This document shows positions 29,641-56,940 of a stretch of DNA of 64,000 bases, piece by piece. Positions within the stretch are counted from its first letter, which is position 1, and each line of letters starts with the position of its first letter. Below the pieces are notes generated by a model. The model made no database searches and had not been told where the DNA came from. It worked only from the letters and a program-made list of their open reading frames with translations. The position numbers and the translations under genes are program-made. Source of the stretch: Morinoia aosen (taxonomy: Eukaryota > Arthropoda > Malacostraca > Amphipoda > Talitridae); contig CM059562.1 in the NCBI GenBank assembly GCA_030386875.1, positions 22,435,360-22,499,359 of the forward strand. The letters are read 5' to 3'.

Positions 29641-31179
29641 AACCCAACGTAGATATACAAAATCGACAGTGCACTTACGAAGGAAATGCCTTCATACCAG
29701 CAGAATATTAATTAACTCAAGCATAGGATGATCAGCTTTACTAAGTCATTTTATTGTTTAATTTTTTTTAAGCGCTGGGGCAACCTATTTTACAGCAGAG
29801 CACCTGAAACTAAGAAAGCTTTTTGTCCCAGGTCATATGAGCGGTAGCTATCTGAAACATCATTTCTCAGATTCGGATTGTTGATCGGAATACTGGAGGA
29901 AATTTTGTTTACGATATCTGCATTACTCCGGGGGGTCGGGAGATGTGAACACTTATCGGGCTTTTGGAATAGTAAATAAAGAAAGTAAAGAAGGAATACA
30001 GGGGTTCAGCCAAATTGCTTTAGGAAAAGGTTGAGTGATCGCTCTTCTTGTCTTTGCCTAAGAACATGACCTTAGCTGCAAAGTTCACTCGTTTAACATT
30101 TATTTAAAAAAATATTGAAAAATAACTAACCGGACTAAACTGCAACAATCAAAACGCAATGATACTAGAAACAGAATGACCAAAACAGTATTTTAAAGAA
30201 CGTTCCAAGAAGTCAAACCTAAGCTGCAATATCGTTTCAACGAGTGCAACAGCGCGACGCTTCCTCAATAGCTCTGCATCACGAAAAAAACTCAAGATGG
30301 TTCATCAACGACGAAGATACCAACACCAACTTCATCATTAGTACGCGAGAGAATTGTAAGTGTAAGTGATAAGTTAGAACCTGAAAATTTAAATTGTGTT
30401 AATATTAATACTAAGTAATCCTCTTGTAGCACTGTAAATGCTTCTCATAGTCCGAAAGGTATTATTACCAATACCCGTGCACAAAATGATACTGGCAGTA
30501 AAATATTTATCTCGGAGTGTGAGCTGCGAGGATAACGTAACATTTTCAGTGCAGAGCAACATGAGCAAAACTGCTACCTTTTTGGCTGGATACTTGCACC
30601 CGCTGCAAATAACTAGTTCCGAAATTATTCATAAAATTACTAATACGCTTTCTATTACAAACAGCACTTTTCAATGAAACAATGATACAACGCGTGCCTT
30701 CAAGCTTTTCGTCGATTCTTTCCATTGTATCAAATATTTGAATAAATACAGAACAACTATTTGCTCTAAAATTCTCATATAAGTTCTCATGACCTTACGA
30801 TTGATGTACCCCCCAGCATCTAGCGTAATGCCGAGTCCAACTGTAAAGAACTTGATGATAGTACTCAATGTTTCAAATCAAACCATGAAGAAGTTTTGAA
30901 TACTTTTCTTGTCGGAGATAATATTATTACAGCAGTTAACAGACATGACAATGATAACTCGAGTAAAATTCAAACCATGAATTTACGATGTTTTGATGAC
31001 GTCCTTGACTCAATTGACCGAGTCTCAATTCAAAAATTACATCATCTGCTTCAGAGATTTAAGCATTTCGTTCACTGGCCTCACTAAGATCAAAGAACTT
31101 ATAATGACCAAGCATGTCATTTCTAATATTTGTGTAGTAAGTGCTTGCATTGGTCAGTGTCGATACCGTCGTGTGGTCG
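29641..31179. other. Unassigned AT-rich DNA
   Basis: No gene or element recognised. Short frames at 30438-30677 and 30896-31268 have no recognisable domain. Confidence 0.5.
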
Positions 31180-31266
31180 ACGTGAGGGTTCGTGGAAAAG
31201 GGGCTGTCTTCTGTGCAGCAACCTTTTTTCCGGGGGCGCTAGCTTTTCTGCGCAGCTGCTCTTCCT

Positions 31267-31625
31267 GAGGTTCGTGTGGGTGCCGCCTACGCCGTAATAA
31301 GTCCGCTAGGGTAACAGAAGAAACTTCTGCTTGTGCCGAACTACGACGGTCTCGTTAGAGTGAGGTTTGTGTGGGTACCGCCTGCGCCGTAATAAGTCCG
31401 CTAGGGCAACAGAAGTAAATTCTGTTTGTGCCGAACTACGGCGGTCCCGTTAGAGTGAGGTTTGTGTGGGTACCACCTGCGCTTTAATAAGTCCGCTAGG
31501 GCAACAGAAGTAAATTCTGTTAGTGCCGAACTACGGCGGTGCCGTTAGGAAGACGAGCAAATGCCTGCGCCGTAATAAGTCCGTTAGGGCAACAATTAAA
31601 TTCTGTTTGTGCCGAGCAGCGACAG
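31267..31625. repeat. 95-bp tandem repeat, about 3.7 units
   Basis: Units start at 31267, 31362 and 31457 (period 95), each with GAGGTTTGTGTGGGTACCGC, CCGTAATAAGTCCGCTAGGG, CAACAGAAG and GTGCCGAACTACG blocks. A fourth, partial unit runs about 31563-31625, and a weak partial unit may precede at about 31180. It is GC-rich relative to its surroundings. It may be part of an LTR or leader of the retroelement fragment at 32130-32535, but no direct link is visible. Confidence 0.88.
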
Positions 31626-32129
31626 TGTCTTCCTTTACGACCAACTATGCGGTATAGTTGGTCCTACCGGGGTCGTTCCTTTAACCCCTGTTAAAGCGGG
31701 GTAACATATTAGACCTAAGCCTGTGTTACACAGGAAAAAGAAATCTGTTATGACCTCAGAAAGTTCCTCGTTAACTGCCGAATCTCTTTGCAGTGCCTCT
31801 TACATACACAGATACATTTTAACATAGCCAGTGATTTATTCTCTATTGCAAAAATAGTGTGTACAGACATGAGCTACAGCATATCATGGTACAACACGCA
31901 AAATTACATTTAAAATATTAGTCTTATTTAGCTAGGTAATCAAAATAACATTGGAATATTGAAATGCAATACAAATGATACCTAAGGGCTAACTGAAGTA
32001 AATGCACAGACGCATCATTAGCGCAGAGAAACAGACCAAGGCAGGGTTCAGGGAGCTGGACACATGAAGAAAATACTTAAGATTATGGGTAACTAACACA
32101 AACTGGACTGGACACCACTTGCTGCCTGA
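31626..32129. other. Unassigned DNA between tandem repeat and gypsy fragment
   Basis: No gene recognised. A short palindromic word near 31640-31665 (GACCAACTATGCGGTATAGTTGGTC) stands out. Confidence 0.45.
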
Positions 32130-32535
32130 CACGCCCGGGGGAGGGTGTCTCTGCTACGAAAGCCAAGACAGGAAATCAGCAAGGTGGTTGTCGACTCCCG
32201 AAAGGTGTTCTGCTCGAAACCTAAAAAAGCTTAAATACAAAGCCCAGCGTTTCAATCGGAGGTTCAACTTGTCTGTCTGCTGTAAATACAGGAGCGGTCG
32301 ATGGTCGGTCTGTAACACAAATTAACGTCCATACAGGTAGACCTCAAACTTCTGTAGAGCCCAGTATATGCTTAGCGCTTCGTTTTTCAATGGTAGAATA
32401 GTTCATTTCAGCTCCTCTCAGTCGACGTGACGCATTTTCTACTGGCGCGCAGTGACGGAAGTCTCGTTTGCTTTGCTGGAGGAGAGCCGCTCCAAGTCTA
32501 GTTTGGAAGGCATCTGTCCTTAGAATGAAAGGACA
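32130..32535 (-). pseudogene. Gypsy-type RNase H fragment (fossil)
   Basis: A reverse-strand remnant of a second gypsy element. Recognisable RNase H signatures include a LRTDA block, GAALLQQ, NYSTIEK and a downstream VDNHLADFLS motif typical of gypsy pol. No other parts and no LTRs can be assigned. It is broken and ends where the large gypsy element's left LTR begins. Confidence 0.75.
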
Positions 32536-32640
32536 TGTGGTGGTATGAACACACACCACCACACAAGCTTAAAAGCGCCACCTCACAGCCTCGAAGCGCC
32601 AGTACTAAACGACTAATAATCAGAGCTCAAGTTTGGCGCT
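32536..32640 (+). repeat. Left LTR of the gypsy element, first part
   Basis: First 105 bases of the LTR, matching 56640-56744 with about four differences. It opens with an internal inverted repeat (TGTGGTGGT...ACCACCACA). It is cut off at TTTGGCGCT by the LINE insertions and resumes at 46275. Confidence 0.93.
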
Positions 32641-32655
32641 GGGGGGGGGGGGGGG

Positions 32656-33467
32656 CGGTGACAATAGGAAAGAAGAGAAGAGAATTAGAGTTTGGCACAG
32701 TGTGTGCCAGAAGAGAAAAAGGAGGAGAGAAAAGGAAAAGGATAGTGGAAGAAGAAAAAGGCGCTTAACGCATAATTAGGTGATCATGTGCATCTTGTTT
32801 AATGTATACTGCTAGTTAGTTAATATAAAAAGGGAAAAGTACCCGTCAGGGCTTTTTATGCTAAAATTGATTTCTTGTTTTGTATTATGCCGCGTCTACT
32901 GTGCTCTATTGTCTTATTATATCCGGTAGAGGGCGACATGAGAAGTCCGTACACCGAGTGAATTTTAATTTAAGCTTAGGAGATTTTATGCTCGTCTACA
33001 AGTCCCTATATACATAAACTATATATACATATACTGTATACTAACCTATACATTTGTACATACATAATTTAGTGCAATTTTTTATTTTTTTTTCCATTAT
33101 AGTTATTTTTTATTATTATTTTTTTTTCATACATATGCATATATACAAATTTTACATACATATATATATTTACACACACATACCCGACACGTGCACACAT
33201 GTTTTTTTTCAATTACGCACACACACAATACACAAGCATACATATCAGTATGTAAAACTTGGTTTTATCATACATATATACACAACACCACCCACACACA
33301 CGACACATGAGCACACAATGGTTATAAACGTTTCCATACTCCTACACCCACTAGCCTACACACACACGCACACGATACTCATGCACACCAATATGCATAC
33401 ATACACTATTTTTTTTTATTTTTGTTTTATTTTATTTTTTTTTATATATTTTTTATGCATTTATTTA

Positions 33468-33498
<31 letters not shown>

Positions 33499-34246
33499 TT
33501 TTTTCATTTATTTATTTATTATCTTTTTTTTTCTTTCACATTACCTACATTACATCCTAGCTATCTAAACAATTATACTTATCTTACCTACACAGTAAGC
33601 AATACCTAAAACTTCATTCTTTGTTACTGAACTATGACTTAGGCCTATCTAGTTATGAACTACGAGTATATACAATCTAATATCTACACATGTACATCAT
33701 CTAGCGCCTATAATTAAAGAATAAGTTTTTACTCATTCACTCCCTTATTTACGAGTGTTGTCCATTCTCTTTAATACACGAGCACATATGTTACGCTACT
33801 ACGACCTACCATATATATCTACATACATGTATACATTTCAAGTTACTTGTTTTTCTCTACCTATTAACAATAATAGCGTCTGTGCTCATCTTGCATTATA
33901 TACACCTAGATACAGTTTTGCAGACATGCACTTTACACTATATACATTTGAACCAATAGGCTATTGAGTAATTAGAGGTGTAAGCAAACAGGAATTTAAG
34001 AACTTTTAAAGTTATGAAAAATAATTAATGAAAAAAGTCTTTGTGTATGTCAGTGCAACTGAAATGAAGTTAAAAGTCTGGGGTTTTGGCTTCCCACCCA
34101 TGGGGGGGAAGACCGTCCTACTGCTCGCCAAAACCCCAGAAAACAAAAAATAAAAAAATACTAATGAAATTTGTTTGGTCTTCCCCCACGTCCTCCTAAA
34201 AGGACTAGAAATTGTCTTAGTAGGTCTGCCTGGCAAGGTTGTTGGT
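32656..34246 (-). other. 3' untranslated region of LINE J1
   Basis: About 1.6 kb between the ORF2 stop and the C-tail. Plus-strand T-runs, (ATTT)n and (CA)n tracts at 33060-33545 give spurious hydrophobic frames. A GC-richer block near 34084-34200 is conserved in copy J2 at 41060-41180. Confidence 0.85.
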
Positions 34247-36981
34247 TCATGTATATTTTGGAGGTGGAGGGGGGGCCATTGCAAGTAGTCTAGAGCTTTT
34301 AAATCGGGAATGTTGATTGGGGATAAGCTCCGGAGGAAAACTTAATTTTGTATACAGGTCTGGATCGAATTGCTGCATGTTGTGCCAGATCCTGTTAGCA
34401 TGCTCGTGCAGCAGTATGTTTATGGGAGGGACATTTAGGTGATTGTGCAGGTGTTTGGATGGTACTGCTTCTATTAAACTTGTGCCGGTAATAAATCTAA
34501 GTGCTTTGTTTTGAACTCTTTGTAATTTGGATATTGCTGTTGCTGATGCTGTGTGTAAAGGTATGACTGGGTATATTAATGCTGATCTAACAAAGGCCAT
34601 ATATAGTTTCAGTTTGGTTTCTGTACTGAGGTGAGTAAAACGGTAAATTTTTTCTAGATTTTTGTAGGCTATTGCTTGTCTAATGGAGGCTTGTGATGAA
34701 ATACCATGTGTTGTTATGTTCAAACCCAGGACTTTTCCTTTATTTGTGTATGGTATTGATTTGTCATTTATGGTAACTTCAAATGTTTTCCTTCTATTTA
34801 TAGGGATTATGGCAAATTTACTACTATTGGTTAATATTTTCCATTTCCTTTCAAACGTGTTTATTTGTTCTATTGCTTTTTTGGTGTTGGCTGTCGCGTA
34901 TTTTGGTGAATATTTCCCGGCTGTTATCTGTGTGATGTCATCTGCGAAACATATGTAATCTGTTTTAGGTAGCGGCGGTGGTAAATCATGAGTATAAAAG
35001 CTGAAAAGTGTAGGGGATAGGCATGCTCCTTGGGGTACACCTGTACACAGTGAGAATCGCGGCCCTATATAATTGGATATTCTTATTGAGGCTGTCCTAC
35101 TATTAAGGTAATTGTTCAGGGTCCGGAGAAATATAGGGTGAAGATTGATTTGTGAAAATTTGAAGATGAGACCAGAGTGCCATACCTTGTCGAATGCTTT
35201 TTTAACATCTCTTAAGCAAATGTCTATTGTGAATTTTTGTGCTAATTGAATGGAAATTGATTCGTGCAGGGTTGCCAGTGCGGTATGTGTGCCTCTATTA
35301 CATCTGAAACCGTGTTGTCTGCTATTTAAATGATTATGAATTGTAAGGAAATTTGTTAACCTATTATTTAAAATTTTATCTAGTAGTTTGCCGTGTACAT
35401 CCAGGAGGGAAATTGGTCTGTAATTTTGAACTGATTTTGGGGATGTGTTTGGTTTTGGGAGGAAAATCATTATGGCATGTTTTAGATTGTTCGGGAAGTA
35501 GCCAGCTGATATGGACATATTGAAAATATAAATCAGAAAGTAAATCATGTTTTTTGGTAAGTTTTTAAGTTGTAAGGTGGTTATTTCCGTTGTCCCTGGT
35601 GCTTTCTGTTTAAACGGTCTCAGCGCTTGTAATAGTTCTTCATATGTAATAGGGGGAAAATGTATAGGGTCCAATCTGTTGATATTTCCAGTTCGGTATG
35701 GTTTGATTGTATTTGCTATGTTGTTCATTTGTTCTTGTACTATTGCAATGTGTTCTCTGTCGAAGTGGGGTTCATCTTGTTCTGTAAATATTTCCTTCCA
35801 ATGTGCTCTGAAGATGGGTTCTTTTTCTTGAGGAGTATATAACTGTTCTTTATTATGTTCTATGTATGGTATTTGTTGTTTGGTGTTGCCGCCCATCATC
35901 CTCTTGCAGGAGGACCAAAACCTTTTCGGATCCTCCTGCAGTTTAAGGTTATGAATTAAATCCTCTCAAGCTTGCTGGTATTTGCCTTTGTAAATATCTT
36001 GTAAACGGAATCTTATTGTGTTCAAATGTCGGTTCAAACCAATAGATGGCCCATATCTGGAGATAAATTGGGTTGTCTGTCGGTATTGTGCTTGTATCGT
36101 CAAAGTTTCGTGAGTTGGTTTGATCCCCGGGATTATCCTATGGGTTATGAGTGGGACTGCTGTATTTGTGGCATCCTGCACGTGTTTGGTCCATGCGTCT
36201 AGGTACTTGTTTATTTCGTTAATAGTTGGATCCAGTTGTGAAGGGGGTGTGATAGGTGATAGTAGCTGCTTGTATAATTTCCAGTTGCTTTATGATAGTG
36301 TCTTCGCGGTTTGATGGGAATTTGTATTGGGTTGGCTGTGATGGTGGCGATTATTGGAATGTGATCCGATGGTGTGATGGGGCCGGGCTTCAAGAAAATA
36401 TTATGGAATGCATGCTTGTTTTGTAGAACTACATCGGGTGAGGTGGTGCTATTGTGAGTTATTAGGGTGGGAAAAAAGGGTCCAATGTGTGTGCATTTTT
36501 GTTTTGAAATTAGGTAATAGAGATGGTTACCTCTATTGTTCCTATGTGAATATCCTGTTATACTATGTGCTGCATTTATGTCTCCAAGAAAGTAAGTTGG
36601 ATGAGGTCTGTTAAAAAGCGTGTGAAAGTCTATGAAGTGCAGATAATCCGTTCTGGGGGGTGTATAAGTAGTGCCTATAGTGATTGGTCCTTGAAATGTG
36701 TCTATTGTTACTGCCATCATGTCTGAATGAAAATTATCGTGAAGTCTGCATGAAATGTTTTTCTTAAGAGCTATTGCGGTGCCTGCGTGATTTTCGATCA
36801 ACTTATTTGAGTAGAATGTATTGTAATTAAAGATCTTGAGGGGTTGGTTATTTATGAGGCAGTGACTATTGATGAGTATTATGTCCGGGTCTAGCGTGTT
36901 GTATATGTTGGACAGAGTGATTTTATTGGTATTCCATGATTGTACGTTGTGTTGAATTATTGTTATTTTCTTCAAATTCAT
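34247..36981 (-). pseudogene. LINE J1 ORF2 (endonuclease-reverse transcriptase), broken
   Basis: Homologous throughout to the intact ORF2 at 41226-43961. The endonuclease part is open from 36981 to about 36280, where a one-base deletion relative to J2 shifts the frame. A Trp codon conserved in J2 is a TGA stop at 35966-35968. The remainder, including the reverse transcriptase with its FADD motif, is open for 550 codons (34247-35899). Two disabling changes in 2.7 kb suggest relaxed but not ancient decay. Confidence 0.92.
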
Positions 36982-38653
36982 TTTTGAGCAATTAATTTTT
37001 TGGGTTTCTTAGTGACTGCTATTAGTGACTGGTGTCTTGGAAGGTTTGTGAAGTCCTCATGTGGGATGATGTTTATTTTAGTTCTTGTGAATTGTACCCT
37101 GTAGTTGTTTATGTACTCGTATTCCAGTAATGTTTGCAATCTCATGTCTTGAACAGTAAATTTTAATCCTTTGTCATCTTCTTTTCTATTGAATTCCTGG
37201 ATGTACCATTCTGTCGGGGGATTTTCTGGGATTGGTGAGTTGTCGAGGAAATTTCTGTAGAGTTTGATATTAAGGTTGTGCTTATTGTCCAGTACTATGC
37301 TTGAATTTCCAACGTCATCACTGATCCTACGCTTTGCTCTCGCCTCCGTTTCCATGGCCTCCTCCACGAGCTCCTGCTCACATTCCAGAGACACATCCAC
37401 CGTTTTTTCCTGGTCAGTTTCCGTTTCCTGTGGGGTTGATTCTGCTTTGTAATAGAAGTTGAAAATTGCTGCAGAGTCTCGATCTGGAAAGGTGGTGTCA
37501 ATATTGAAATTCATTTTTAGGGATTGCGATAGAATTTCACCAAATTTTTGGGTTCTATTGAGCGCTGCTATATGTGCTTCCAATATGAGTGCTGTGAGTT
37601 TTATATGTGTTTTTGTAGTTAGTGTGAGAGTATGTTCGGGGGGGTTTGTTTGTTGAATTTCGTGCTTCGCAATTTCAGCATAGGTGTTTTGGGTTTGCTG
37701 ATGCTGTTCATGTTTTTCATTTTCGATTTTTTGTTTAATTACATTTTTTCTGTACGGGCAACTTGATGCTAATGTCCTATGAGGTCCATTACAGTTGAGG
37801 CATTGCTTGAGTGTGCTTGTGCATTGATCGTACGTGTGTTCTTGAGAGGAGCATTCTGAGCAGTATTGAGTTGGTTGGGTGCATTTGTTTGTTGGGTGGT
37901 CTTCATATTTATAGCATTTGTAGCAGATGAGGATGTGTGTATATTGCTCTTGTTCACATTGATAGGGTGTAATTTTCGTGTGGAACATGTAAAAACCATC
38001 TCGGAGGATCCTTTGTGCAGTAGTAGTATCGGAAGTTATCAGTTTGATTAGATGAGTGTATTGTTTTATTTTGACTATTTCTGTTACTGATAGCCATGAG
38101 TTTTGTTGCTGGATTTCTGCTTTTACTCGTATTTCTTCTGCAGGTCTTGAGCCTATTTCACCGTCTATTTGTCTAACAAAAATAGATCTTTTTGCTCTTA
38201 GGTCCGGGGGAATGGCTGGAATGATGTTCAATTTCTGAAATGCGTTAATTGCTTTGCTCGAGGTTAGTTTGTCAACTGAAGTGGCATCATCTGTTACTGC
38301 ATAACCGGTTTTGGTGGGAGTTAGTCGAATAAGGGGAGCATTAAGGTCTTTAAAGGTCGTTTCGAAAATTTTTGTTTATCTACTGGCTTTGAACTGTCAA
38401 TAAGTTTTAGTTGTATTCTGTACGTTGGTGATTTGGTTCTATGTGCAGAAACGGTTGCGGCACTGCTTGAAGTTGGCGGTATGAGTACCGTGGGTGGAAG
38501 GTTACTAGGATTTATGGGGAGGGACCCCGGAGTAGCATTCCTAGTTTTAGAATTAGAACGAGGGTTTGGAAGAAGAGGGGCCCTGGGGGGGGGGCGGCCA
38601 CCCAAGCCTCCCCGCCCAGCAGCAGCTCCCCTCCCCCGATCTGGGGGAGGCAT
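36978..38653 (-). pseudogene. LINE J1 ORF1 (gag-like CCHC protein), broken
   Basis: Homologue of the intact ORF1 at 43964-45625. The N-terminal Pro/Gly/Arg-rich segment is open from 38653 to about 38375, where a single missing base relative to J2 shifts frame. The remaining part, with three zinc knuckles, is open as 417 codons (36978-38231). The ORF1 stop overlaps the ORF2 start as ATGA, whereas in J2 the two are separated by two bases. Confidence 0.92.
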
Positions 38654-39271
38654 ATCGGAAAACGCCTAGCCCTACCCTTATTATATTTACAATACAATAT
38701 ACAGTATTATACTACAATATATACAACTCTCGACCACACAATTAGGAACCAACTTAGGGCACACCTAGCTGCAGTTTAACTGAGTGAGATATCAGGTTCC
38801 TTAACTGGCGAAATCTAGATTGAATACGTTAAACTGTACAGTACTGATACATTCAACTATACAATGAAAATACATTAAACTGTACAACACTAATACAATA
38901 AACTACACAATACTTATACACCTAACTATACAATATCAATACTGTAAACTATACACATCAACACAGCAAACTATACAATATCAATACATTTAAACAAGTA
39001 TGCACAAGATCACCGGAATAGAATGACGGAGACAAATGAAAAAGGCAATAGTTGAAAAAAAATCTCACCTCTGGCCCAGAGGGGTTGCCCCGGGGCAGGT
39101 GGTCAAAAACCACACTCCGATCCGACTAAGCTACCTCTTAAGCTTTCAAATAGAAAGAAAAGAAAAATAGAAAAATTAGGTAGCTGAAGAAAGTATTGTT
39201 TTTAAGCACATTTATCGCACAAAGAGAGCCACAAACCATCCACGGCGCATTCACGAGAGTCCTTTGGCGCT

Positions 39272-39301
39272 GGGGGGGGGGGGGGGGGGGGGGGGGGGGG
39301 G
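39272..39301 (-). other. Poly(C) 3' tail of LINE J2 at the head-to-tail junction
   Basis: Thirty consecutive G on the plus strand (C on LINE sense) between TTTGGCGCT and CGGTGACAATAGG. The equivalent tail of J1 is 15 bases (32641-32655). The empty site in the right LTR has four (56745-56748). Tails of different length in both copies suggest the tail is part of the element's replication rather than host sequence, although slippage can also change it. Confidence 0.85.
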
Positions 39302-41225
39302 CGGTGACAATAGGAAAGAAGAGAAGAGAATTAGAGTTTGGCACAGTTTGTGCCATAAGAGAAAAAGGAGGAGAGAAAAGGAAAAGGAAAGTGGAAGAAG
39401 AAAAAAAGGCGCTTAACGCATAATTAGTTGATCTTGTGCATCTTGTTCGATTGATACTACTAATTTGTTAGTTTAACGAGGGAAAATACCCGTCAGGGCT
39501 TTTTATGCTAGAAACGATTCATCTATTTAATTATGCCGCGTCTACTCTGCTCTATTGTAATTTTTTTTTTTTTTTGTGGGAAGGCGATAAAAGCCCTCGT
39601 CAAGCAATATAAATTTTAAATGGGAGAAATTTATGCTCATCTACAAGTCCCTATATACAATATACACACATAATTATACATATATATATATTTTTTTTCA
39701 AATTTTTTTTTTTCTTTTTTTTTTATTCATTTTATTCTCAATTTTTTTTTTATTTTTTTTTATTTATTTATTTTATTTATTTTTTTTTTCATTCATTTTT
39801 TTTTTTCATTCATTTTTTTTTTTTTTTTTTTTTTTACATATGCATATACACATATTACATTTATATACACACACACACCCGACACATGCACTCGTACCTT
39901 TTTTTTTCTTAATTCAGAATTTCACACACACACGATACACAGACATACATATGAGTATATAAACTTTTTGTACAATTTTTGTTTTATCATACATATATAT
40001 ACATATATTATCACCCACACACGACACATGAGCACACAATGGTTCTATACGTTTCACACCCACAACCTACACACACACGCACACGAATTACATGGACACT
40101 AATATGCATATATACATAATTTTTTTTTTTTTTTTTGTTCTATTATATATATATTTTTTTTTCATTTGTATTTTTTTTTTATATTTTTATTTATTTATTA
40201 TTATTATTTTTTTTCAATTTTTTTCCTTTTTCTATTATTATTATTATTTTTTTCATTTTTATTTTTATTTTTATTATTTTTATTTTTATTATTTTTTTTA
40301 CACACTATATTACATCCTAGCTATCTAAACAATTACACTTAGCTACCTACACAGTAAGCAATATCTAAAATTCATTCTTTATTACTGAACTATGACTTAG
40401 GCCTATCTAGTTATTGATCTACGAGTATATACAATCTAATATCTACACATTTACATCATCTTGCACCTATAATTAGAGAATAAGTTTTTACTTATTAAAT
40501 ATCTTATTTACATTACCTATATTACATCCTAGCTGTCTAAACAATTACACTTATCTTACCTACACAGTAAGCAATACCTAAAATTTCATTCTTTGTTACT
40601 GAACTATGACTTAGGCCTATCTAGTTATTGGTCTACGAGTATTTACAATCTAATATCTACACATTTGCATCATCTAGCGCCTATGATTGGAGACTAAGTT
40701 TTTACTTATTTACTGTCTTATTTACGAGTGTTGTCTATTTCTCTACAGTGCGCGAGCACATTATGTTGCATTACCTTCGACCTACCATATATATCTACAT
40801 ATATATATACACATTTCAAGTTACTTATTTTTCTCTAACTATTTACAATTATTGCGTCTGTGCACATCGTGCATTATATACACCTAGATACAGTTTTGCA
40901 GACATGCACTCTACGCTACGTACATCTTTACTAGTTGGCTATTAAGTAGTTTGAGGTGTAAGTAAATAGGAATTTAAGAAATTTTACAGTAATGAAAAAT
41001 AATTAATGGAAAGAAGAATTTTTGTGTATGTCAATGCAACTGAAATGAAGTTAAAAGTCTGAGGTTTTGGCTTCCCACCCATGGGGGGGAAGACCGTCCT
41101 ACCGCTCGCCAAAACCCCAGAAAACAAAAAATAAAAATATTACTGAAATTAATTTGGTCTTCCCCCACGTCCTCATAACAGGACTGGAATTTGTCTTAGT
41201 AGGTGTGCCTGGCAAGATTGTTGGT
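39302..41225 (-). other. 3' untranslated region of LINE J2
   Basis: About 1.9 kb with extensive poly-A/T and TA-rich tracts (39660-40310) and a partial internal repetition: the CATCCTAGCTATCTAAACAA block at about 40315 recurs at about 40525. The block at 41060-41180 is conserved in J1. Confidence 0.85.
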
Positions 41226-43961
41226 TCATGTATATTTCGGAGGTGGAGGGGGGGCCAATGCAAGTAGTCTAGAGCTTTTAAATCGGGAATGTTGATTGGG
41301 GATGAGCTCCGGAGGAAAACTTAATTTTGTGTACAGGTCAGGATCGAATTGCTGTATATTGTGCCAGATCCTGTTTGCATGCTCGTGCAGCAGTATGTTT
41401 ATGGGAGGGATATTTAGATGATTGTGCAGGTGTTGTGATGGTACTGCTTCTATTAAACTAGTGCCGGTAATAAATCTAAGTGCTTTGTTTTGAACTCTTT
41501 GTAATTTGGATATTGCTGTTGCTGATGCTGTGTGTAAAGGTATGACTGGGTATATTAATGCTGATCTTACAAAGGCCATGTATAATTTCAGTTTGGTTTC
41601 TGTAGGAAGGTAAGTAAAACGGTAAATTTTTTCTAGATTCTTGTAGGCTATTGCTTGTCTAATGGAGGCTTGTGATGATATACCATGTGTAGTTATGTTC
41701 AACCCCAGGACTTTTCCTTTATTTGTGTATGGTATTGATTTGCCGTTTATGGTAACTTCAAATGTTTTCCTTCTATTTATGGGGATTATTGCCAATTTGC
41801 TACTGTTGGTTAATATTTTCCATTTACTTTCAAATGTGTTTATTTGTTCTATTGCTCTTTTGGTATTGGCTGTTGCATATTTTGGTGAATATTTTCCGGC
41901 TGTTATCTGTGTGATGTCATCTGCAAAGCATATGTAGTCTGTTTTAGGTAGCGGCGGTGGTAAATCATGGGTATAAAAGCTAAACAGTGTAAGGGATAGG
42001 CATGCTCCTTGGGGTACACCTGTGCACAGTGAGAATCGCGGTCCTAAGTAATTGGATATTCTTATTGAGGCTGTCCTGCCATTGAGGTAACTATTCAGGG
42101 TCCGGAGAAACATAGGGTGAAGATTAATTTGCGAAAGTTTGAAGATGAGACCAGAGTGCCATACCTTATCGAATGCTTTTTTAACATCTCTTAAGCAAAT
42201 GTCTATTGTAAATTTTTGAGCTAATTGGATGGAAATTGCTTCGTGAAGGGTTGCCAGTGCGGTGTGAGTGCCTCTATTACATCTGAATCCGTGTTGTCTG
42301 CAATTAAAATGGTTATGAATTGTAAGGAAATTTGTTAATCTATTATTTAAAATTTTATCTAGTAATTTGCCGTGTACATCCAGGAGGGTAATTGGTCTGT
42401 AATTTTGAACTGATTTTAGAGATGTGTTTGGTTTTGGGAGGAAAATCATTATGGCGTGTTTTAGACTGTTCGGGAAGTAACCAGCAAATATGGACATATT
42501 GAAAATGTAAATCAGAAAGTGAATCATGTTTTCTGGTAAGTTTTTAAGTTGTAAAGTGGTTATTTCCGTTGTCCCTGGTGCTTTCTGTTTAAACGGTCTC
42601 AGCGCTTGTAATAGTTCTTCATATGTAATAGGGGGAAAATGTATAGGGTCCAGTCTGTTGATATTTCCCGTTCGGTATGGTTTGATTGTATTTGCTAAGT
42701 TGATCATTTGCTCTTGTACCGTTTCAATGTGCTCCTTGTCGAAGAGGGGATCGTCCTGTTCCGTGAATATTTCCTTCCAGTGTGCTCTGAAGATGGGTTC
42801 TTTTTCTTTAGGAGTATGTAACTGTTCTTTATTATGTTCTATATATGGTATTTGTTGTTTAGTGTTACTGCCCATCATCCTTTTGCAGGAGGACCAAAAC
42901 ATTTTCGGATCCTCCTGCAGTTTGAGACTGTGAATTAATTCCTCCCAGGTTTGCTGATATTTGCCTTTGTATATTTCTTGTAATCGGATTCTTATTGCGT
43001 TCAAATGTCGGTTCAAATCTATAGATGGCCCATATGAGGAGATGTATTGAGTTGTCTGTCGGTATTGCGCTTGTAATGTCAAAGTTTCGTGAGTTGGTTT
43101 GATCCCCGGGATTATTCTGTAATTTATGAGTCGAACGGCTGTATTTGTGGCATCCTGTACGTGTTTAGTCCATGTGTTTAGGTACTTGTTTATTTCGTTT
43201 ATAGTTGGATCCGGTTGTAAAGGGGGTGTGACAGGTGATAGTAACTGTTTATATAAATTCCAATTTGCTTTACGGAAGTGTCTTCGCGGTTTGATGGGAA
43301 TTTGTATTGGGTTGGCTGTGATGGTAGCGATTATTGGAATGTGATCCGAAGGTGTGATGGGGCCAGGCTTCAAGAAAATATTATGAAATGCATGCTTGTT
43401 TTGCAAAACTACATCGGGTGAGGTGGTGCTATTGTGAGTTATTAGGGTGGGAAAAAAGGGTCCAATGTGAGTGCATTTCTGCTTTGAGATTAGGTAGAAA
43501 AGATGATTTCCTCTATTGTTCCTATGTGAGTATCCAGTTATGCTATGTGCGGCGTTTATGTCACCTAGAAAATAGGTTGGATGCGGTCTATTGAAAAGCA
43601 TGTGGAAGTCTATAAAATTCAGGTAGTCTTTTCTCGGAGGTGTATATGTAGTACCTATGGTGATTGGTCCCTGTAGCGTATCTATTGTTACTGCTAACAT
43701 GTCTGTGTGGAAATCATCGTGAAGTCTGTACGAAATGCTTTTCCTGAGTGCTATTGCAGTGCCTGCGTGGTTTTCGTTTTGCTTATTTGAATAAAATGTA
43801 TTGTAATTAAAGATCTTAAGGGGCTGGTTATTTATGAGGCAGTGACTATTGATAAGTATTATGTCTGGGTCCAGTGAGTTGTATATGTTGGATAGTGTGA
43901 TTCTATTTGTGTTCCAAGATTGCACGTTATGTTGAATTATTGTTACTTTCTTTAGGTTCAT
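41226..43961 (-). CDS. LINE ORF2 protein: AP endonuclease and reverse transcriptase
   Basis: A 911-residue enzyme that would nick target DNA and copy the LINE RNA onto the nick. The endonuclease spans about 1-225: QHNVQSW at 10-16, a GTAIA block near 67, LGDINAAH near 132-139 and SDHIPI near 205. The reverse transcriptase spans about 480-760: YRPITLLDVHGKLLDKIL near 521, QHGFRCNRGTHTAL near 555, the first catalytic Asp in LRDVKKAFDKVWH near 592, GVPQGACLSLTLFS near 648 and FADDITQIT near 679. No RNase H domain follows. The frame is uninterrupted. Its ATG lies two bases after the ORF1 stop, so translation probably depends on reinitiation or coupling. Confidence 0.95.
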   Translation of the reverse strand: MNLKKVTIIQHNVQSWNTNRITLSNIYNSLDPDIILINSHCLINNQPLKIFNYNTFYSNKQNENHAGTAIALRKSISYRLHDDFHTDMLAVTIDTLQGPITIGTTYTPPRKDYLNFIDFHMLFNRPHPTYFLGDINAAHSITGYSHRNNRGNHLFYLISKQKCTHIGPFFPTLITHNSTTSPDVVLQNKHAFHNIFLKPGPITPSDHIPIIATITANPIQIPIKPRRHFRKANWNLYKQLLSPVTPPLQPDPTINEINKYLNTWTKHVQDATNTAVRLINYRIIPGIKPTHETLTLQAQYRQTTQYISSYGPSIDLNRHLNAIRIRLQEIYKGKYQQTWEELIHSLKLQEDPKMFWSSCKRMMGSNTKQQIPYIEHNKEQLHTPKEKEPIFRAHWKEIFTEQDDPLFDKEHIETVQEQMINLANTIKPYRTGNINRLDPIHFPPITYEELLQALRPFKQKAPGTTEITTLQLKNLPENMIHFLIYIFNMSIFAGYFPNSLKHAIMIFLPKPNTSLKSVQNYRPITLLDVHGKLLDKILNNRLTNFLTIHNHFNCRQHGFRCNRGTHTALATLHEAISIQLAQKFTIDICLRDVKKAFDKVWHSGLIFKLSQINLHPMFLRTLNSYLNGRTASIRISNYLGPRFSLCTGVPQGACLSLTLFSFYTHDLPPPLPKTDYICFADDITQITAGKYSPKYATANTKRAIEQINTFESKWKILTNSSKLAIIPINRRKTFEVTINGKSIPYTNKGKVLGLNITTHGISSQASIRQAIAYKNLEKIYRFTYLPTETKLKLYMAFVRSALIYPVIPLHTASATAISKLQRVQNKALRFITGTSLIEAVPSQHLHNHLNIPPINILLHEHANRIWHNIQQFDPDLYTKLSFPPELIPNQHSRFKSSRLLALAPPPPPKYT

Positions 43962-43963
43962 TT

Positions 43964-45625
43964 TTAAGCAATTAATTTTTTTGGTTTTTTGGTGGCTGCT
44001 ATTATTGACTGGTGTCTTGGAAGATTTATGAAGTCCTCATGGGGGATTATGTTTATTTTTGTTCTTGTGAATTGGACCCTGTTACTCTTGATGTAATCCA
44101 GTAATGTTTGTGATCTTATGTCCTGAACTGTGAATTTTAGTCCTTTATCATTTTCTTGTCTGCTGAGTTCCCGGATGTACCATTCTATTGGGGGATTTTC
44201 TGGGATTGGTGAATTGTCTATGAAGTTTCTGTACAGTTTCATTTGAAAGTTGTGTTTGTTATCTAATACTATGCTTGAATTACCCAAATCATCACCACTT
44301 ATCCTTCGTTTAGTTCCAGCCTCCGTGTCCATAGCCTCCTCCATCTGTTCCTGCTCACATTCCAGAGAGACATCCACCGTTTTTTCCTGTTCCGTTTCCG
44401 TCTCCTGTGGTATTGTTTCTGATTTATAGTAAAAGTTGAAAATTGCGGCTGAGTCACGATCTGGGAAAGTAGTATCGATATTGAAGTTCAGTTTTAAAGA
44501 TTGTGAAAGAAGTTCGCCAAATTTCTGTGTTCTGTTCAGTGCTGCTATGTGTGCTTCCAAGATGAGTGCTGTCAGTTTAATATGTGTTTGTGATGTTAAT
44601 GTGAGGGTGTGTTCTGGGGGGTTTGTTTGTAATATTGCGTGCTTTGCAATTTCAGCATAGGTGTTTTGAGTTTGTTGGTGATGCTCCTGTTTTTCATTTT
44701 CGATTTTTTGTTTGATTACATTTTTCCTATACGGGCAACTTGATGCTAATGTTCTGTGTGGTCCATTGCAATTGAGGCATTGTTTAAGTGTGCTAGTGCA
44801 TTGTTGGTAAGTATGTTCTTGTGAAGAACATTCTGAGCAATATTGTGTTGTTTGGGTGCATTTGGATGTTGGGTGGTCTTCATATTTATAGCACTTGTAA
44901 CAGATGAGGATATGTGTGTATTTTTCTTGTTCACATTGGTAGGGTGTAATTTTTGTATGATACATATAAAACCCATCTCGGAGGATCCTCTGTGCAGTGG
45001 TGGTGTCGGAAGTTATAATTTTGATTAGATGAGTGTATTGCTTTATTTTAACTATTTCTGTGACTGATAACCATGAATTTTGCTGTTGGATTTCCGATTT
45101 GATTTCATCGGCAGGTCTTGCACCTATTTCATTATCAATTTGTCTGACAAAAATGGATCTTTTTGCTCTTAGGTCGGGGGGAATAACTGGTATTATATTC
45201 AATTTTTGGAATGCATTGATTGCTTTACTGGAAGTTAGTTTATCAACCGAAGTGACATCGTCAGTTACTGCATAGAAACCTGTACTGGTGGAAGTCAGTC
45301 TAATGAGAGGAGCATTTAGGTCTTTGAAGGTTGTTTCAAAGATTTTTGTCTTGTCCACTGGTTTAGCTGGATCGATATACTTAAGTTGTACTCTATATGT
45401 TGATGACTTTATTCTAGGTGCTGTACTGGTTACGGCAATGTTGGGTTTTGGTGGAATAAGCATCGTAGGCGGAGGGTTTCCAGGGTTAAGGGGGAAGGAC
45501 CCCGGAATTGTGTTTCTAGTTTTGGAAGCAGAACGAGGGTTTGAAGAAAGAGGGGCCCTGGGGGGGCGGCCACCCGGGCCTCCCCGCCCAGAACCAGCTC
45601 CCCTCCCCCGATCCGGGGGGGGCAT
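43964..45625 (-). CDS. LINE ORF1 protein: gag-like nucleic-acid-binding protein
   Basis: A 553-residue RNA-binding partner of ORF2, expected to coat the LINE RNA. Residues 1-60 are Pro/Gly/Arg-rich and probably disordered. A central domain (about 75-235) has the IFVRQI block seen in jockey ORF1 proteins. Three zinc knuckles follow at about 242-298: CYKC...H...C, CSEC...H...C and CLNC...H...C. The acidic C-terminal region contains runs of Glu near residue 400. The frame is fully open from an ATG followed by three Pro codons. The gene sits directly upstream of ORF2. Confidence 0.95.
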   Translation of the reverse strand: MPPPDRGRGAGSGRGGPGGRPPRAPLSSNPRSASKTRNTIPGSFPLNPGNPPPTMLIPPKPNIAVTSTAPRIKSSTYRVQLKYIDPAKPVDKTKIFETTFKDLNAPLIRLTSTSTGFYAVTDDVTSVDKLTSSKAINAFQKLNIIPVIPPDLRAKRSIFVRQIDNEIGARPADEIKSEIQQQNSWLSVTEIVKIKQYTHLIKIITSDTTTAQRILRDGFYMYHTKITPYQCEQEKYTHILICYKCYKYEDHPTSKCTQTTQYCSECSSQEHTYQQCTSTLKQCLNCNGPHRTLASSCPYRKNVIKQKIENEKQEHHQQTQNTYAEIAKHAILQTNPPEHTLTLTSQTHIKLTALILEAHIAALNRTQKFGELLSQSLKLNFNIDTTFPDRDSAAIFNFYYKSETIPQETETEQEKTVDVSLECEQEQMEEAMDTEAGTKRRISGDDLGNSSIVLDNKHNFQMKLYRNFIDNSPIPENPPIEWYIRELSRQENDKGLKFTVQDIRSQTLLDYIKSNRVQFTRTKINIIPHEDFINLPRHQSIIAATKKPKKLIA

Positions 45626-46265
45626 TACGGAAGGAGCCTAGCCCTACCCTACTATAAATACAGTTGAGCTACTCAATATTATGATACAATGTATACAACA
45701 CACAGCTGTACAAATTGCCCTCCGAAGGCACACTTAGCAACGGTGCCCCTAGTTCAGTTATTAATTACCTAAATAGACGAGTTCCAGAAAATTGTATCAC
45801 TGTGAACTATACAATATCAACACAGTGAAGCAATCCCTAAATGATGAGGCATATTATTACATTACACTATACGATACTAATATAGTAAACTATACAGTAC
45901 TAATACAAATAGGCTATACAATTATAATACAATAGACTATACAATATCAATACATTAAACTATACAATGTGAGTGAATACAAACTGTACAGAATTAGGAC
46001 ATTTGAATCGACAAGTATGCACAAGATCACACAACCGAAAAAACACACGGAATGAGAAAAGCAACAATTGGGAAACAGTGCTCACCTCAGGCCCGGAGGG
46101 GGTGCCCCTGGGCCGGTGGTCAAAAAAAACACACTCAGTTCTCCGACTTAACTTTCTGTTAAGCTTCAAAAAACAGAAAGAATAGAAAATAGGGAGCTGA
46201 AGAAAAAGCACTTTTACCGCACAAAGAGAGCCAGTAACCAACCACGGCGCATTCACGAGAGTCCC
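45626..46265 (-). promoter_or_regulatory. 5' leader of LINE J2 (probable internal promoter region)
   Basis: About 640 bases between the element's 5' end and ORF1. Jockey-type LINEs carry promoters inside their 5' untranslated region, so this is the expected place; no specific box is claimed. The first 60 bases match J1's 5' end closely, showing both copies are full length at this side. Confidence 0.6.
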
Positions 46266-46274
46266 TTTGGCGCT

Positions 46275-46940
46275 GGGGTGCCGAACCGACCGTTATAAGC
46301 AGCCTGCCTCGAGCAGTTAGGCTACGTCGATAGAAACCTTCGTAAGTTTAGCACAAGCCTAGACGGCGACAAGCGGCACCTCCGTCTCGACCAATCAGAG
46401 ACCTGGACGGCCAGAGTGGGGCTCCAGCAAGGCTTATATAAACAGCCACGCGGCAAGCGCTGCTTCAGTACACTCTCAGCGTCCCTGATATTCACAACTA
46501 AGTCTCGACGCTCCGCTAGTACCTCACCCGTTGCCTTCACCGCCGCCTCGACTGCCAGCCGCCACGCCTCGTCGCTTCCTTGATGCGCCAGTTCCTTGCA
46601 AGCGTCTGGGACTCCTTGGTCGGAGACACTCAGCCTCGCCGGTCTGCCCTCGTTCTCCAACCGCGCCTCCCCGACAACCGTTGGTCCGCCAAGACGACCT
46701 CGGTTGCTGTATTACTCGACTGTAATATTCCCTTGTGCCATTATTGTCGGCGATCTTCACAATAATACGACGTTTATTCCAGTTGTGTTTTCCTTACCTT
46801 GCCGGGTTCGTTTGCACCTCAGGTACTCACTTCGGGCAGAGATATTTCACAAGTCTAGTGATATTCACAAGTCTTTCGAAATTCACAAAGTCTGCTCGGA
46901 GTGTAAAGCAGCCTGAGGGAGAACACACTACACTGGTAAC
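46275..46940 (+). repeat. Left LTR of the gypsy element, second part, and leader
   Basis: Resumes the LTR after the LINEs. It matches 56745-56940 until about 46470, including a CCAAT word (46391-46395) and a TATATAA box (46435-46441) that mark the retroelement promoter. Beyond 46470 the right-hand copy no longer matches, so the LTR and leader boundary is approximate. Confidence 0.8.
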
Positions 46941-46966: not shown

Positions 46967-47810
46967 ATGGCTAGGAGAGATGTCCGGTTACCCACCTTCA
47001 GTGGTGACATCAAAGGATGGCTCCTCCCCTGCGATGTGTTTCTCGCACAAATCCCGAACCTGGACGACGCTTCGAAGTTCGGGGCGCTCCTAGGAGGACT
47101 ACCCACGCACATTGTATCCGGAGTACTACAAGAGATACTACTGAACCCCCCGGCAAAAGGGAAATACGACGCATTAAAAGCGGCGTTGACGCAACGTTTC
47201 GTGCGTCACGACGAAGAAACAAACTACAACGCCATCGTTAAAATAACGCTGGGAGACAATACGCTTTCCGAGTTATTCCTGGAAATGACGCGTCTCAACA
47301 ACTGTAGACAAGCTCCGCTACCCCGTCAGTCATCCGCTCGATTCACCTTCCAAAATTGCCAGTGGAAGCGCAGCCACTGATTGAAGCTTTAGGAAGAGGA
47401 AAAACGGACGAAGAGTACAGGGAGATTGCCGATCAAGTCACAGCAAGGCAATCCGCATGTCGGTCCTCAACTGCCAAGCCCCTCACCGTAAACTCTGTCA
47501 AGCCATCACCGGCTCCGACAGTGTCGAGAGCCGAATTCGACGCAGCTATGAAGGAGATAGCAGAACTCAAAGAAATGTTAGGAAGGGCGTTTCGCCCGCA
47601 AGAAAATGTCCACCAAATAGACAATTGGCCGAATCAAGCCCCGGCGCCCAGAAACGCCCAAAACGCAAACAAAGGAAGCAGGGTCGAACAAATTTACTGC
47701 TACTACCACCGTACCTTTGGCGATCGGACAAGAAAGTGCACGCAACCATGCAGCTTTGCGGGAAACGACGGCCGCGGAGGATGGAAGGCGCCCCATCTTT
47801 CGCGCACGCA
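46967..47810 (+). pseudogene. Gypsy gag region (fossil)
   Basis: The start region reads PTFSGDIKGW, the conserved opening of many arthropod gypsy Gag proteins, followed by an LGGLPTHI-type helix segment. It is the structural-protein part of the element. Broken. Confidence 0.8.
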
Positions 47811-49000
47811 AGAGCAGGCGAGCTGGTGTACGTTAAAGATGCGAAAAACGGCCGATATCTGGTCGATACTGGCTCGGCGGTCAGTCTTATCCCGCCCGAT
47901 GGAAAAAACTCGACCAGAACCCCGTCCTACGATCTGCTAGCAGCCAACAATACTCCAATAGCTTCATACGGGACGGCAAGAAGGAACATTCAGCTCGCCC
48001 CTCAATTGTTCGTGAGAAGGGATTTTTTAGCGGCCGATGTCGGTCAACCTATTATAGGCATTGATTTCCTACACATGAACAAAATAAACGTCGACGCAGC
48101 AAACGCAAGATTGTACATCCAAACCACACAAACGGAAATTCCTTGTGAGCGAGCAAACTTGAGTAGCGCAAAAATTCACAGGATCGATCATCAAGCATCG
48201 CCGGAGTTCAACGACATTTTTAAGGAGTTCCCCGAGATACTGGCGTCACACGAATGCACTCCTCAGCCAGGAAGAAAAAATGTAGAGCATCACATCGAAA
48301 CGGTCGGCCCCCCGGTGTACGCGAGACCTCGGAGACTCCCTCCAGAAAAACTCGAAGCAGCACGGAACGAGTTTAAAAAGATGTTAGATCAAGGCATCAT
48401 CAGACCATCAAAAAGCGCCTGGGCGTCTCCTATGCACATGGTCCCTGAGTCGTCCGAACCCGGGGCTTGGAGAATTTGCGGGGACTACAGGCGACTAAAT
48501 GCAGTTACGAAGCCCGATCGTTACCCCATTCCTCACTGCCAAGACTTCCACTACAAGCTGCACAAGAAGACAATTTTCTCAAAAATTGACCTCGTAAAGG
48601 CCTATCACCAGATACCGGTGAAAGCAGAAGACATTCAGAAAACGGCCATCACCACGCCGTTCGGCTTGTACGAGTACGCTGTAATGTCTTTCGGACTCCG
48701 GAATGCTGCTCAAACGTTCCAGCGTTACATCGATGCGATCACCAGAGACATGGATTTTGTCACGGCGTATATAGATGACGTGCTGATAGCATCTTCGTCC
48801 GCCAAAGAGCATAAAGATCACTTTAGGCAACTGTTCCGTCGTCTGCGAGAAGAGAAACTACAAGTGCACCCAGTAAAATGCCTTTTTGGAGTGCCCGAAC
48901 TAGACTTCCTCGGGCATAAAGTGTCAGCTCGGGGGATCTCGCCGCTTCCATAGAAAATAGAAGCCATCTGCAACATCCCACGACCGTCGACGATAAAGAA
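47811..49000 (+). pseudogene. Gypsy protease and reverse transcriptase region (fossil)
   Basis: An aspartic protease signature ([11 protein letters not shown], near 47860) is followed by a Ty3/gypsy reverse transcriptase with [25 protein letters not shown] and YIDDVL blocks. The order gag, protease, reverse transcriptase is that expected of gypsy elements. Broken. Confidence 0.88.
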
Positions 49001-49571
49001 ACTTAGACAGTTTCTGGGAATCGTCAATTACTATCACCGATTTCTCCCAGCTGCGACAGAAAAAATGAAATCCCTCACTGAACTAACGAAAGTCTACTCA
49101 CTCGAAGAAAATCATCAATTGGACTCCGGAACAAGATGCAGCTTTTGTGAAATTGAAGAACGAAATTTCCCAGCTCACAATGTTAGCGCACCCAACTCCA
49201 GAAGGCAAGGCAAGCCTAGTTAAGGATGCCTCTGCCACCGCGGTGGGGGCCGTATTACACCAGGAAATCAAAGGAGAGCAACTACCAGTAGCCTTCTTTG
49301 CAAAGAAGTTGGACGACACGCTATGCAAATACAGCACCAACGACCGGGAGTTAATGGCTATCTTCTTAGCAGTCCAACACTTTGAACATTTCTTGGAGGG
49401 CAGGAGTTTTGAGATCAAAACGGATCACCGACCACTCTGCTTCGCTCTTCACAAATCTACGGAGGGCAGCAATCCACGCCTGGCCAGGCAATCGTCGTAT
49501 CTCTCGCAGTTCGAATGTGAGATCAACCACATCAGTGGCACCACCAACACTGTAGCGGACGCACTATCGCG
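49001..49571 (+). pseudogene. Gypsy RNase H region (fossil)
   Basis: Contains DASATAVGAVLHQ, YSTNDRELMAI and TDHRPL blocks of a gypsy RNase H, then the VADALSR motif. It ends at the Harbinger-type insertion. Confidence 0.88.
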
Positions 49572-49574
49572 TAT

Positions 49575-56639: not shown

Positions 56640-56940
56640 TGTGGTGGTATGAACACACACCACCACACAAGCTTGAAAGCGCCAACTCACAGCCTCGAAA
56701 CGCCAGTACTAAACGACTAATTATCAGAGCTCAAGTTTGGCGCTGGGGTGCCGGACCGAGCTTTATAAGCAGCCTGCCTCGAGCAGTCAGGCAACGTCGA
56801 TAGAAACCTTCGTAAGTTTAGCACAAGCCTAGACGGCGACAAGCGGCACCTCCGTCTCGACCAATCAGAGACCTGGACGGCCAGAGTGGGGCTCCAGCAA
56901 GGCCTATATAAACAGCCGCGCGGCAAGCGCTGCTTCAGCA
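56640..56940 (+). repeat. Right LTR of the gypsy element
   Basis: Matches the two left-LTR pieces with about 4% difference and keeps the uninterrupted target TTTGGCGCTGGGGTGCC (56736-56752), which proves that the LINEs inserted into the left LTR. It includes a TATATAA box (56905-56911). Similarity to the left side stops at about 56940. Confidence 0.92.

Follow-up and report, generated by a model that had tools for sequence, protein, structure and literature searches.

The retrotransposons R1, R2, TRAS and SART insert at recurrent exact sites, with essentially one target sequence each, and the telomeric jockey elements HeT-A and TART form head-to-tail arrays. R1/R2, TRAS/SART, Tx1, Keno and Utopia are target-specific long interspersed elements (LINEs); such LINEs go into repeated sequences, among them genes for rRNA, snRNA and tRNA, exons of spliced leaders, other transposons, telomeres and microsatellites, and tandem insertions are reported for one Utopia family in U2 genes (PMC4640811). 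Promoter position, not a sequence word, is targeted by TRE5-A and its relatives of Dictyostelium, which are non-long terminal repeat (non-LTR) elements of the L1 group with an apurinic/apyrimidinic endonuclease (APE). TRE5-A inserts about 44–54 bp upstream of tRNA genes, which belong to RNA polymerase III, in the opposite orientation, and the protein of its first open reading frame (ORF1) contacts TBP, Brf1 and Bdp1 (PMC5911963). Dada elements are described as DNA transposons inserting in multicopy tRNA and snRNA genes (PMC3706591, PMC8869645). The locus considered here lies in a stretch of 64,000 nucleotides of Morinoia aosen (hereafter the window; C7:22,435,360-22,499,359, in a genome of 1.99 Gb and 29 contigs), where two copies (J1 and J2) of a LINE designated J interrupt the left LTR of a gypsy retrotransposon. 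From the positions of its other genomic copies, we consider it likely that J is targeted to core promoters of RNA polymerase II, chiefly those of multicopy units, that it inserts in the same sense as their transcripts, and that by capturing these promoters it builds its own arrays. The multicopy units hit by J are LTR retrotransposons and histone genes.

Understood in this way, J resembles TRE5-A in being an APE-type non-LTR element at a promoter position rather than at a word, but it stands at the putative start of polymerase II units and in sense orientation. With R1/R2, TRAS/SART, Tx1, Keno and Utopia it shares recurrent exact sites in multicopy sequence; unlike these elements, with essentially one target sequence each, it is found at many unrelated sequences that would have one promoter position in common. 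Its head-to-tail arrays recall HeT-A and TART, yet J is interstitial, at promoter-like sites and with a C tail. Like Dada it inserts into multicopy genes, whereas Dada are DNA transposons of tRNA and snRNA genes. In the literature searched, by title and the beginning of the abstract and with subscription papers mostly outside the search, no description of a LINE targeted to polymerase II start sites was found.

Recurrent targets

The ends of J were searched for with queries made of LINE sequence only, each search scoring its best 40 candidates. One set of 40 places was obtained for the 3′ end and three sets of 40 for the 5′ end (the third queried with the LINE 5′ end of L072), the latter comprising 114 different places after overlap, both window copies included. 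All places were fetched and all 5′ ends classed, L140 by hand; L105 was read by eye after the script had missed it. In 23 of the 40 3′ ends (22 by script, and L105), including that of J1 in the window, the tail is followed by AGCGCC-like gypsy LTR sequence, with L033 beginning two bases into the word. Three 3′ ends lie at the gypsy sense start (L012, L035, L100), three run into another J head (L014, L025, L104) and one into the head of a related LINE (L030), while one is in a diverged gypsy LTR (L099), one is unreadable (L102) and eight are elsewhere (L013, L018, L022, L023, L029, L032, L098, L103).

At the 5′ side, 40 of the 114 ends join the antisense site of the gypsy LTR directly, and five more (window J1, L189, L025, L063, L065) stand behind a LINE tail with the gypsy antisense word, L063 and L065 being assigned to this site solely by AGCGCC after another LINE tail. 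The sense start of gypsy holds seven, plus L044 in tandem. Further recurrent LTR-like or repeat targets, which are putative LTRs and were named LTR3, LTR4 and LTR5 ad hoc, were hit at the LTR3 sense start (six, plus L040 in tandem), the LTR3 antisense site (five), LTR4 (two) and one LTR5 site (three). Histone genes are represented by H3 (18), H4 (two) and H2A (one, L057), and four other targets bear a TATA box (L070, L072, L173, L187). The preliminary description of this locus had raised recurrent insertion at the LTR word and further copies in LTRs of the same gypsy family, and both are borne out by the 23 3′ ends and the 40 direct 5′ junctions. The observation that it named as refuting a single exact site, copies at other sequences, was made as well: 69 of the 114 5′ ends are off the LTR site. 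Most of them lie at recurrent promoter-like starts, so the targeting rule looks wider than one LTR word.

Twenty stretches fetched for the 5′ ends of the 3′ loci gave seven usable 5′ junctions; conversely, no 3′ end turned up in the sequence retrieved around L057, L173, L193, L131, L045, L143, L053, L062, L064 and L044. In the flank after the LINE of L013, the target is tandemly repeated; its units measure a few hundred bases, and CATAAATAAG and AGGAGCTCAGTG are present in every one. Between the gypsy sense TATA and the start, L004 has the tail of another LINE or short interspersed element, (CGAA)n or (CCAAG)n, which comes with a separate duplication, GGAGCCTCA, at the sense start of gypsy. 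Such tails are also present in L063, L065 and L145.

Promoter geometry and the nick

The motif TATAWAW was scored 40–24 bases before the LINE head in 23 hand-chosen target representatives, one per class. With at most one mismatch, it is present in nine of the 23 against an expectation of 0.61 from dinucleotide shuffles of the same flanks (0 of 200,000 draws as high), and three control windows gave 0, 0 and 1 of 23. The nine are gypsy1 antisense, gypsy1 and gypsy2 sense, LTR4, H2A, L070, L072, L173 and L187. The nick was placed by script 21–24 nt after the start of the box in six flank pairs, three of which belong to LTR3, where the box is CATAAG. In the window, counted by hand, 23 nt lead from the TATA-like box (46293-46297) to the nick and 32 nt to the J2 5′ end. 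A fixed geometry relative to promoter elements, as in retroelements of the TRE5-A and Ty3 kind that are targeted to promoter complexes, is present in the TATA-bearing subset; H3, H4 and gypsy2 antisense fall outside that subset. The script recovered target duplications from 20 of the 26 flank pairs; they measure 7–14 bp, with one reaching 17 bp via its C run, and they reproduce the local LTR variant (AGCGCCAAA, AGCGCCAGCC, AGCGCCAGC or AGCGCCGAA). In gypsy sense, L013, L022 and L187, an initiator-like word (CAGT or CCAGT) was noticed by eye, touching or spanning the 3′ boundary of the duplication.

In an alignment of the nick over 13 targets, information nowhere exceeds 0.54 bits; one conserved target sequence of the R1/R2 type is absent, the targets being unrelated and almost without a motif at the nick. 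This bears on the possibility that J is an ordinary site-specific LINE whose endonuclease reads a word (AGCGCCA and look-alikes), start sites being hit for their resemblance to it. Such an enzyme would account for the AGCGCC site being the most used (40 direct and five tandem 5′ ends) and for the commonest form of that site having no TATA match. It is nevertheless unlikely, given the near-absence of information at the nick while TATA is enriched more than 20 nt away, and the presence of near-identical copies at unrelated words.

Insertions in histone genes

The H3, H4 and H2A targets were confirmed at the level of coding sequence, and in all 21 histone insertions the LINE lies in the direction of the gene, references in both directions having been offered. 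In L163 the C tail leads via TTGCGTCTCATCG into an H3 protein, of which 77 residues (MARTKQTARKSTGG...) were read. Upstream of L052 lies a divergent H4 gene, complete with 103 amino acids. The insertion of L057 lies 34 bp after the start of TATATAT, in a promoter of which an empty copy (L207) leads into H2A. The 18 H3 copies are spread over C4, C8, C22, C23, C26 and C27 with seven different junction sequences, and L178 and L196 are at H3 variants about 91–92% like the reference. One insertion position in H3 has the duplication AACTGACTCTT (L200, L202, L203) and the other TTGCGTCTCATCG (L116, L163, L201). Empty H3 sites were seen at three loci (L198, L199, L206); close to where the leader begins, L199 and L206 each differ by a single base. 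For the H3 leader and coding start, the best 40 of 173 candidates are all 100% matches. The H3 and H2A units lie in large arrays on C4, C22, C23 and C26, with neighbours often about 15–40 kb apart, and LINE insertions may have swelled these arrays.

The LINE could have been a passenger in LTRs or histone units that contained it beforehand and were then multiplied, through gypsy retrotransposition or array expansion: the window locus has a paralogue, histone arrays expand, and the neighbouring H3 copies L190–L192 have one junction in common. For most copies examined this is already contradicted. The duplications copy the local LTR variant (AGCGCCAAA, AGCGCCAGCC, AGCGCCGAA), the same LINE sequence lies at unrelated targets, and the different H3 junctions are distributed over six contigs. 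Moreover, among the 19 gypsy-site 3′ loci with long flanks, just three pairs share flanks in register, so most of these loci are separate events. Overall, passive copying is a very improbable source of the pattern. The same low probability is given to survivorship, by which insertions would be scattered and only those at promoters of multicopy units would stay intact or young-looking. The 5′ queries can detect only copies that keep a 5′ end, and the youngest copies make up the best 40 candidates; the 3′-end set, for which no 5′ end is needed, nevertheless points to these same sites, with 23 of its 40 places at the gypsy site and three at the gypsy sense start, and a 2-Gb genome has ample neutral space.

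H3 leaders at other targets and related LINEs

Six copies at non-H3 targets (L004, L062, L066, L094, L095, L159) carry at least 10 bases of the H3 leader between the target and the LINE head, the longest being 17 bases in L066, where chance would give about 0.3 flanks (a rough figure from 29 ten-mers, 111 positions and 95 flanks). In addition, L140 and L169 have GGACTCTT repeats resembling the other H3 junction. An H3 leader at non-H3 sites is naturally explained by parent copies that had inserted at H3 and whose transcription began at the H3 start; the LINE RNA would begin at the captured H3 promoter, and the six leader-bearing copies are as expected from this.

A tree was made from 1400 bases of J1 and of 30 loci of set A, most of the H3 copies belonging to sets B and C. 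Its terminal branches have a median of 0.4%, and two copies at unrelated targets, L053 (LTR3 start) and L054 (gypsy antisense), are identical in it. Target class changes 14 times in the tree vs 15.2 times with shuffled labels (36 of 200 shuffles as low). A preference of a J subgroup for H3 looked likely by eye; the target labels in the set-A tree cluster weakly, and within the tree set target choice appears to be a subfamily property at most weakly.

Other LINE heads, X, Y and Z, occur in the flanks of L018, L030 and L057, and their ORF1 proteins are 36, 57 and 66% identical to that of J over 308–322 aligned residues. Heads of X also come after the antisense site of gypsy in L154 and after the H4 start in L198; those of Y come after TATA promoters of gypsy sense in L077 and L091 and after the H4 start in L199. 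Z lies on the other side of the H2A promoter from J and is directed away from it. One LTR, in L091, has J and Y running out of it back to back. Since X, Y and Z lie at gypsy, H4 and H2A promoter regions, the promoter habit probably predates J.

Proposed mechanism

At the TATA-bearing targets measured, the first nick falls about 21–24 nt after the start of the TATA box, some 7 nt before the putative +1, and the second cut 7–14 nt further on, near this +1. The duplicated stretch of 7–14 bases would roughly be the region melted when the polymerase opens the promoter. Because of this match, we infer that the initiation complex of polymerase II either recruits the LINE particle or opens the DNA that the particle nicks. 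The target sites would be start sites used in vivo and the gypsy antisense site a promoter. The LINE 5′ end would adjoin the +1 of the captured promoter, which would then make the LINE RNA. Each duplication would restore both promoter and start site ahead of the new copy, so that the next insertion could enter the same place, and head-to-tail arrays would form with the newest copy next to the promoter, as with J1 and then J2. We also lean, with some reserve, towards the wider proposal that the open initiation complex of polymerase II guides a whole group of LINEs, comprising J, X, Y and Z, which nick both edges of the promoter bubble, take LTR and core histone promoters, restore them and build arrays, with leaders such as that of H3 marking the parent promoter.

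Several observations weigh against integration at core promoters. The sample consists of the closest copies, as only the best candidates were scored, and covers J and its relatives; the putative start sites are placed from sequence. Nineteen of the 114 5′ ends fit no recognised start site (L048, L066, L067, L075, L127, L128, L138, L141, L145, L153, L154, L156, L157, L158, L160, L168, L175, L194, L195). A TATA match is absent from 14 of the 23 representatives, among them H3 and H4, LTR3 sense (CATAAGG, two mismatches) and LTR3 antisense, as well as gypsy2 antisense (TTGTAG), which makes up 29 of the 40 direct copies of the most used site; the lack of a box in H3, H4 and this TTGTAG form argues against TATA being strictly required. 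The TATA-positive representatives include several LTRs that are related to each other (gypsy1 and gypsy2 sense; L072 and L173), which leaves about six unrelated ones. The spacing of 21–24 nt comes from six pairs of four classes, in which C runs blur the nick by at least one base, and no exact duplication was found by the script in six of the 26 flank pairs. The two insertion positions in H3 are about 10 nt apart, and duplication of the array may have produced some of the H3 copies. Finally, the tree shows weak clustering by target, with eight changes vs 10.7 in shuffles for gypsy antisense and four vs 5.6 for LTR3 sense (36 and 25 of 500 shuffles as low, respectively).

If integration at start sites regardless of their sequence is true, it would show how a LINE can keep moving without a promoter of its own, by gaining one where it lands, and it would explain the head-to-tail arrays; it would also mean that a natural enzyme writes long complementary DNA at active start sites. 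The carried H3 leader would let parent promoters be traced from the genome sequence alone.

Two LINEs in one LTR

The window is interstitial, about 22.5 Mb into the 90.07-Mb C7, so a telomeric location does not apply. Its layout (Table 1) agrees with the preliminary description, in which the left LTR breaks at 32640 and resumes at 46275 while the right LTR is unbroken at this point, and the same 9-bp word occurs three times around two minus-strand, head-to-tail LINEs. The word TTTGGCGCT forms all three duplication copies and is found a fourth time, unbroken, in the right LTR; these four occurrences in the window compare with a mean of 0.54 in 100 shuffles, none reaching four. The two left LTR parts are identical to the right LTR at 289 of 301 bases, and this homology stops near 46471 because the right LTR is broken. 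As the 3′ tails of J1 and J2 are C runs, the duplicated word may exceed 9 bp (up to CCCCAGCGCCAAA). Both LINEs (J1, 6622 bases; J2, 6994 bases) had been taken for complete, which holds for J2, with both reading frames open, but not for J1, where both are broken.

The two copies are also further apart than the first estimate of about 5%: their identity is 86.2% over 6532 aligned bases (Kimura two-parameter distance 0.154), a difference of about 14%, and identities of 92–95% are confined to the best 500-column blocks of the coding part. A paralogous locus lies on C7, 0.7 Mb off. There, L010 matches window 31159-33287 at 98.9% over 2138 bases, taking in the left flank, the LTR start and the 3′ part of J1, and L086 is the J1 5′ end (99.0% over 808 bases). 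The J1 head joins the same LTR variant (GCTTATAACGG...AGCGCCAAA) directly, without J2, and the LTR match extends for only about 55 bases before L086 becomes other sequence. Between the two choices offered earlier, the divergence and the J1-only paralogue favour independent insertions at one site and speak against a very old duplication. On the simplest reading, J1 would have inserted first and J2 later, between the LTR and J1, with which the intact J2 and the broken J1 are consistent; loss of J2 at the paralogue is a less simple alternative. Tandem duplication of one LINE, or misassembly, which the head-to-tail order with a common 9-bp word could suggest, is scarcely credible in view of an identity of just 86%, a paralogue holding J1 alone and further J–J junctions at L014, L025, L040, L044, L104 and L189.

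Table 1. Features of the interrupted gypsy element and the nested LINEs (window positions).
Feature	Position	Strand	Remarks
Left gypsy LTR, 5′ part	32536-32640	+	begins TGTGGTGG; ends in duplication copy 1 (32632-32640)
LINE J1	32641-39262	-	promoter-distal; both ORFs broken; 15-base C tail (32641-32655)
Duplication copy 2	39263-39271		sense AGCGCCAAA; separates J2 tail from J1 head
LINE J2	39272-46265	-	promoter-proximal; ORFs open; 30-base C tail (39272-39301); 5′ end GGGACTCTCGTG
J2 ORF2	41226-43961	-	911 amino acids; APE-type endonuclease and reverse transcriptase; no RNase H family listed
J2 ORF1	43964-45625	-	553 amino acids; three CCHC-like knuckles (by eye)
Duplication copy 3	46266-46274		promoter side
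Left gypsy LTR, resumed	46275-46471	+	sense TATATAAA (46435); initiator-like TTCAGT (46464)
TATA-like box TATAA	46293-46297	-	LINE-sense strand; counted on sequence
Gypsy pol fragments	47457-49782	+	reverse transcriptase and RNase H ORFs
Right gypsy LTR	56640-56937	+	broken at sense start; empty target 56736-56744
TATAAAG in right gypsy LTR	56761-56767	-	

Proteins, tails and neighbouring repeats

J is an APE-type non-LTR retrotransposon, with an APE-like endonuclease and a reverse transcriptase in ORF2 and with a tail and duplications of the kind left by target-primed reverse transcription. In J2 ORF2, Pfam gave PF14529, PF03372 and then PF00078, and listed no RNase H family at E ≤ 1. Elements of the jockey clade have an ORF2 without RNase H and an ORF1 with CCHC knuckles; J has both traits, as no RNase H is listed and CCHC-like knuckles are visible by eye. 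Against PDB at E ≤ 0.001, J2 ORF2 matched only L1 and R2-type chains and unnamed reverse transcriptase-like proteins, and the endonuclease part matched no PDB chain at E ≤ 10. The matches of ORF1 in Pfam were all below threshold, the best being ArfGap across the knuckle region.

Nearly all 3′ ends read, the window copies included, have C-run tails of about 6 to 30 bases, which to our knowledge is odd for a LINE. Annealing of the C tail to the CCCC before AGCGCC was rejected as the cause of site choice, the other targets being without a C run.

The right gypsy LTR ends at its sense start (TTCA), and from 56938 onward an unrelated repeat follows. Among the matches listed for this repeat, 38 other places begin at the same base, four of them in inverted pairs about 570 bases apart, and it is probably the end of a DNA transposon. 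To the left of the gypsy LTR, three tandem 95-base repeats occupy 31266-31550.

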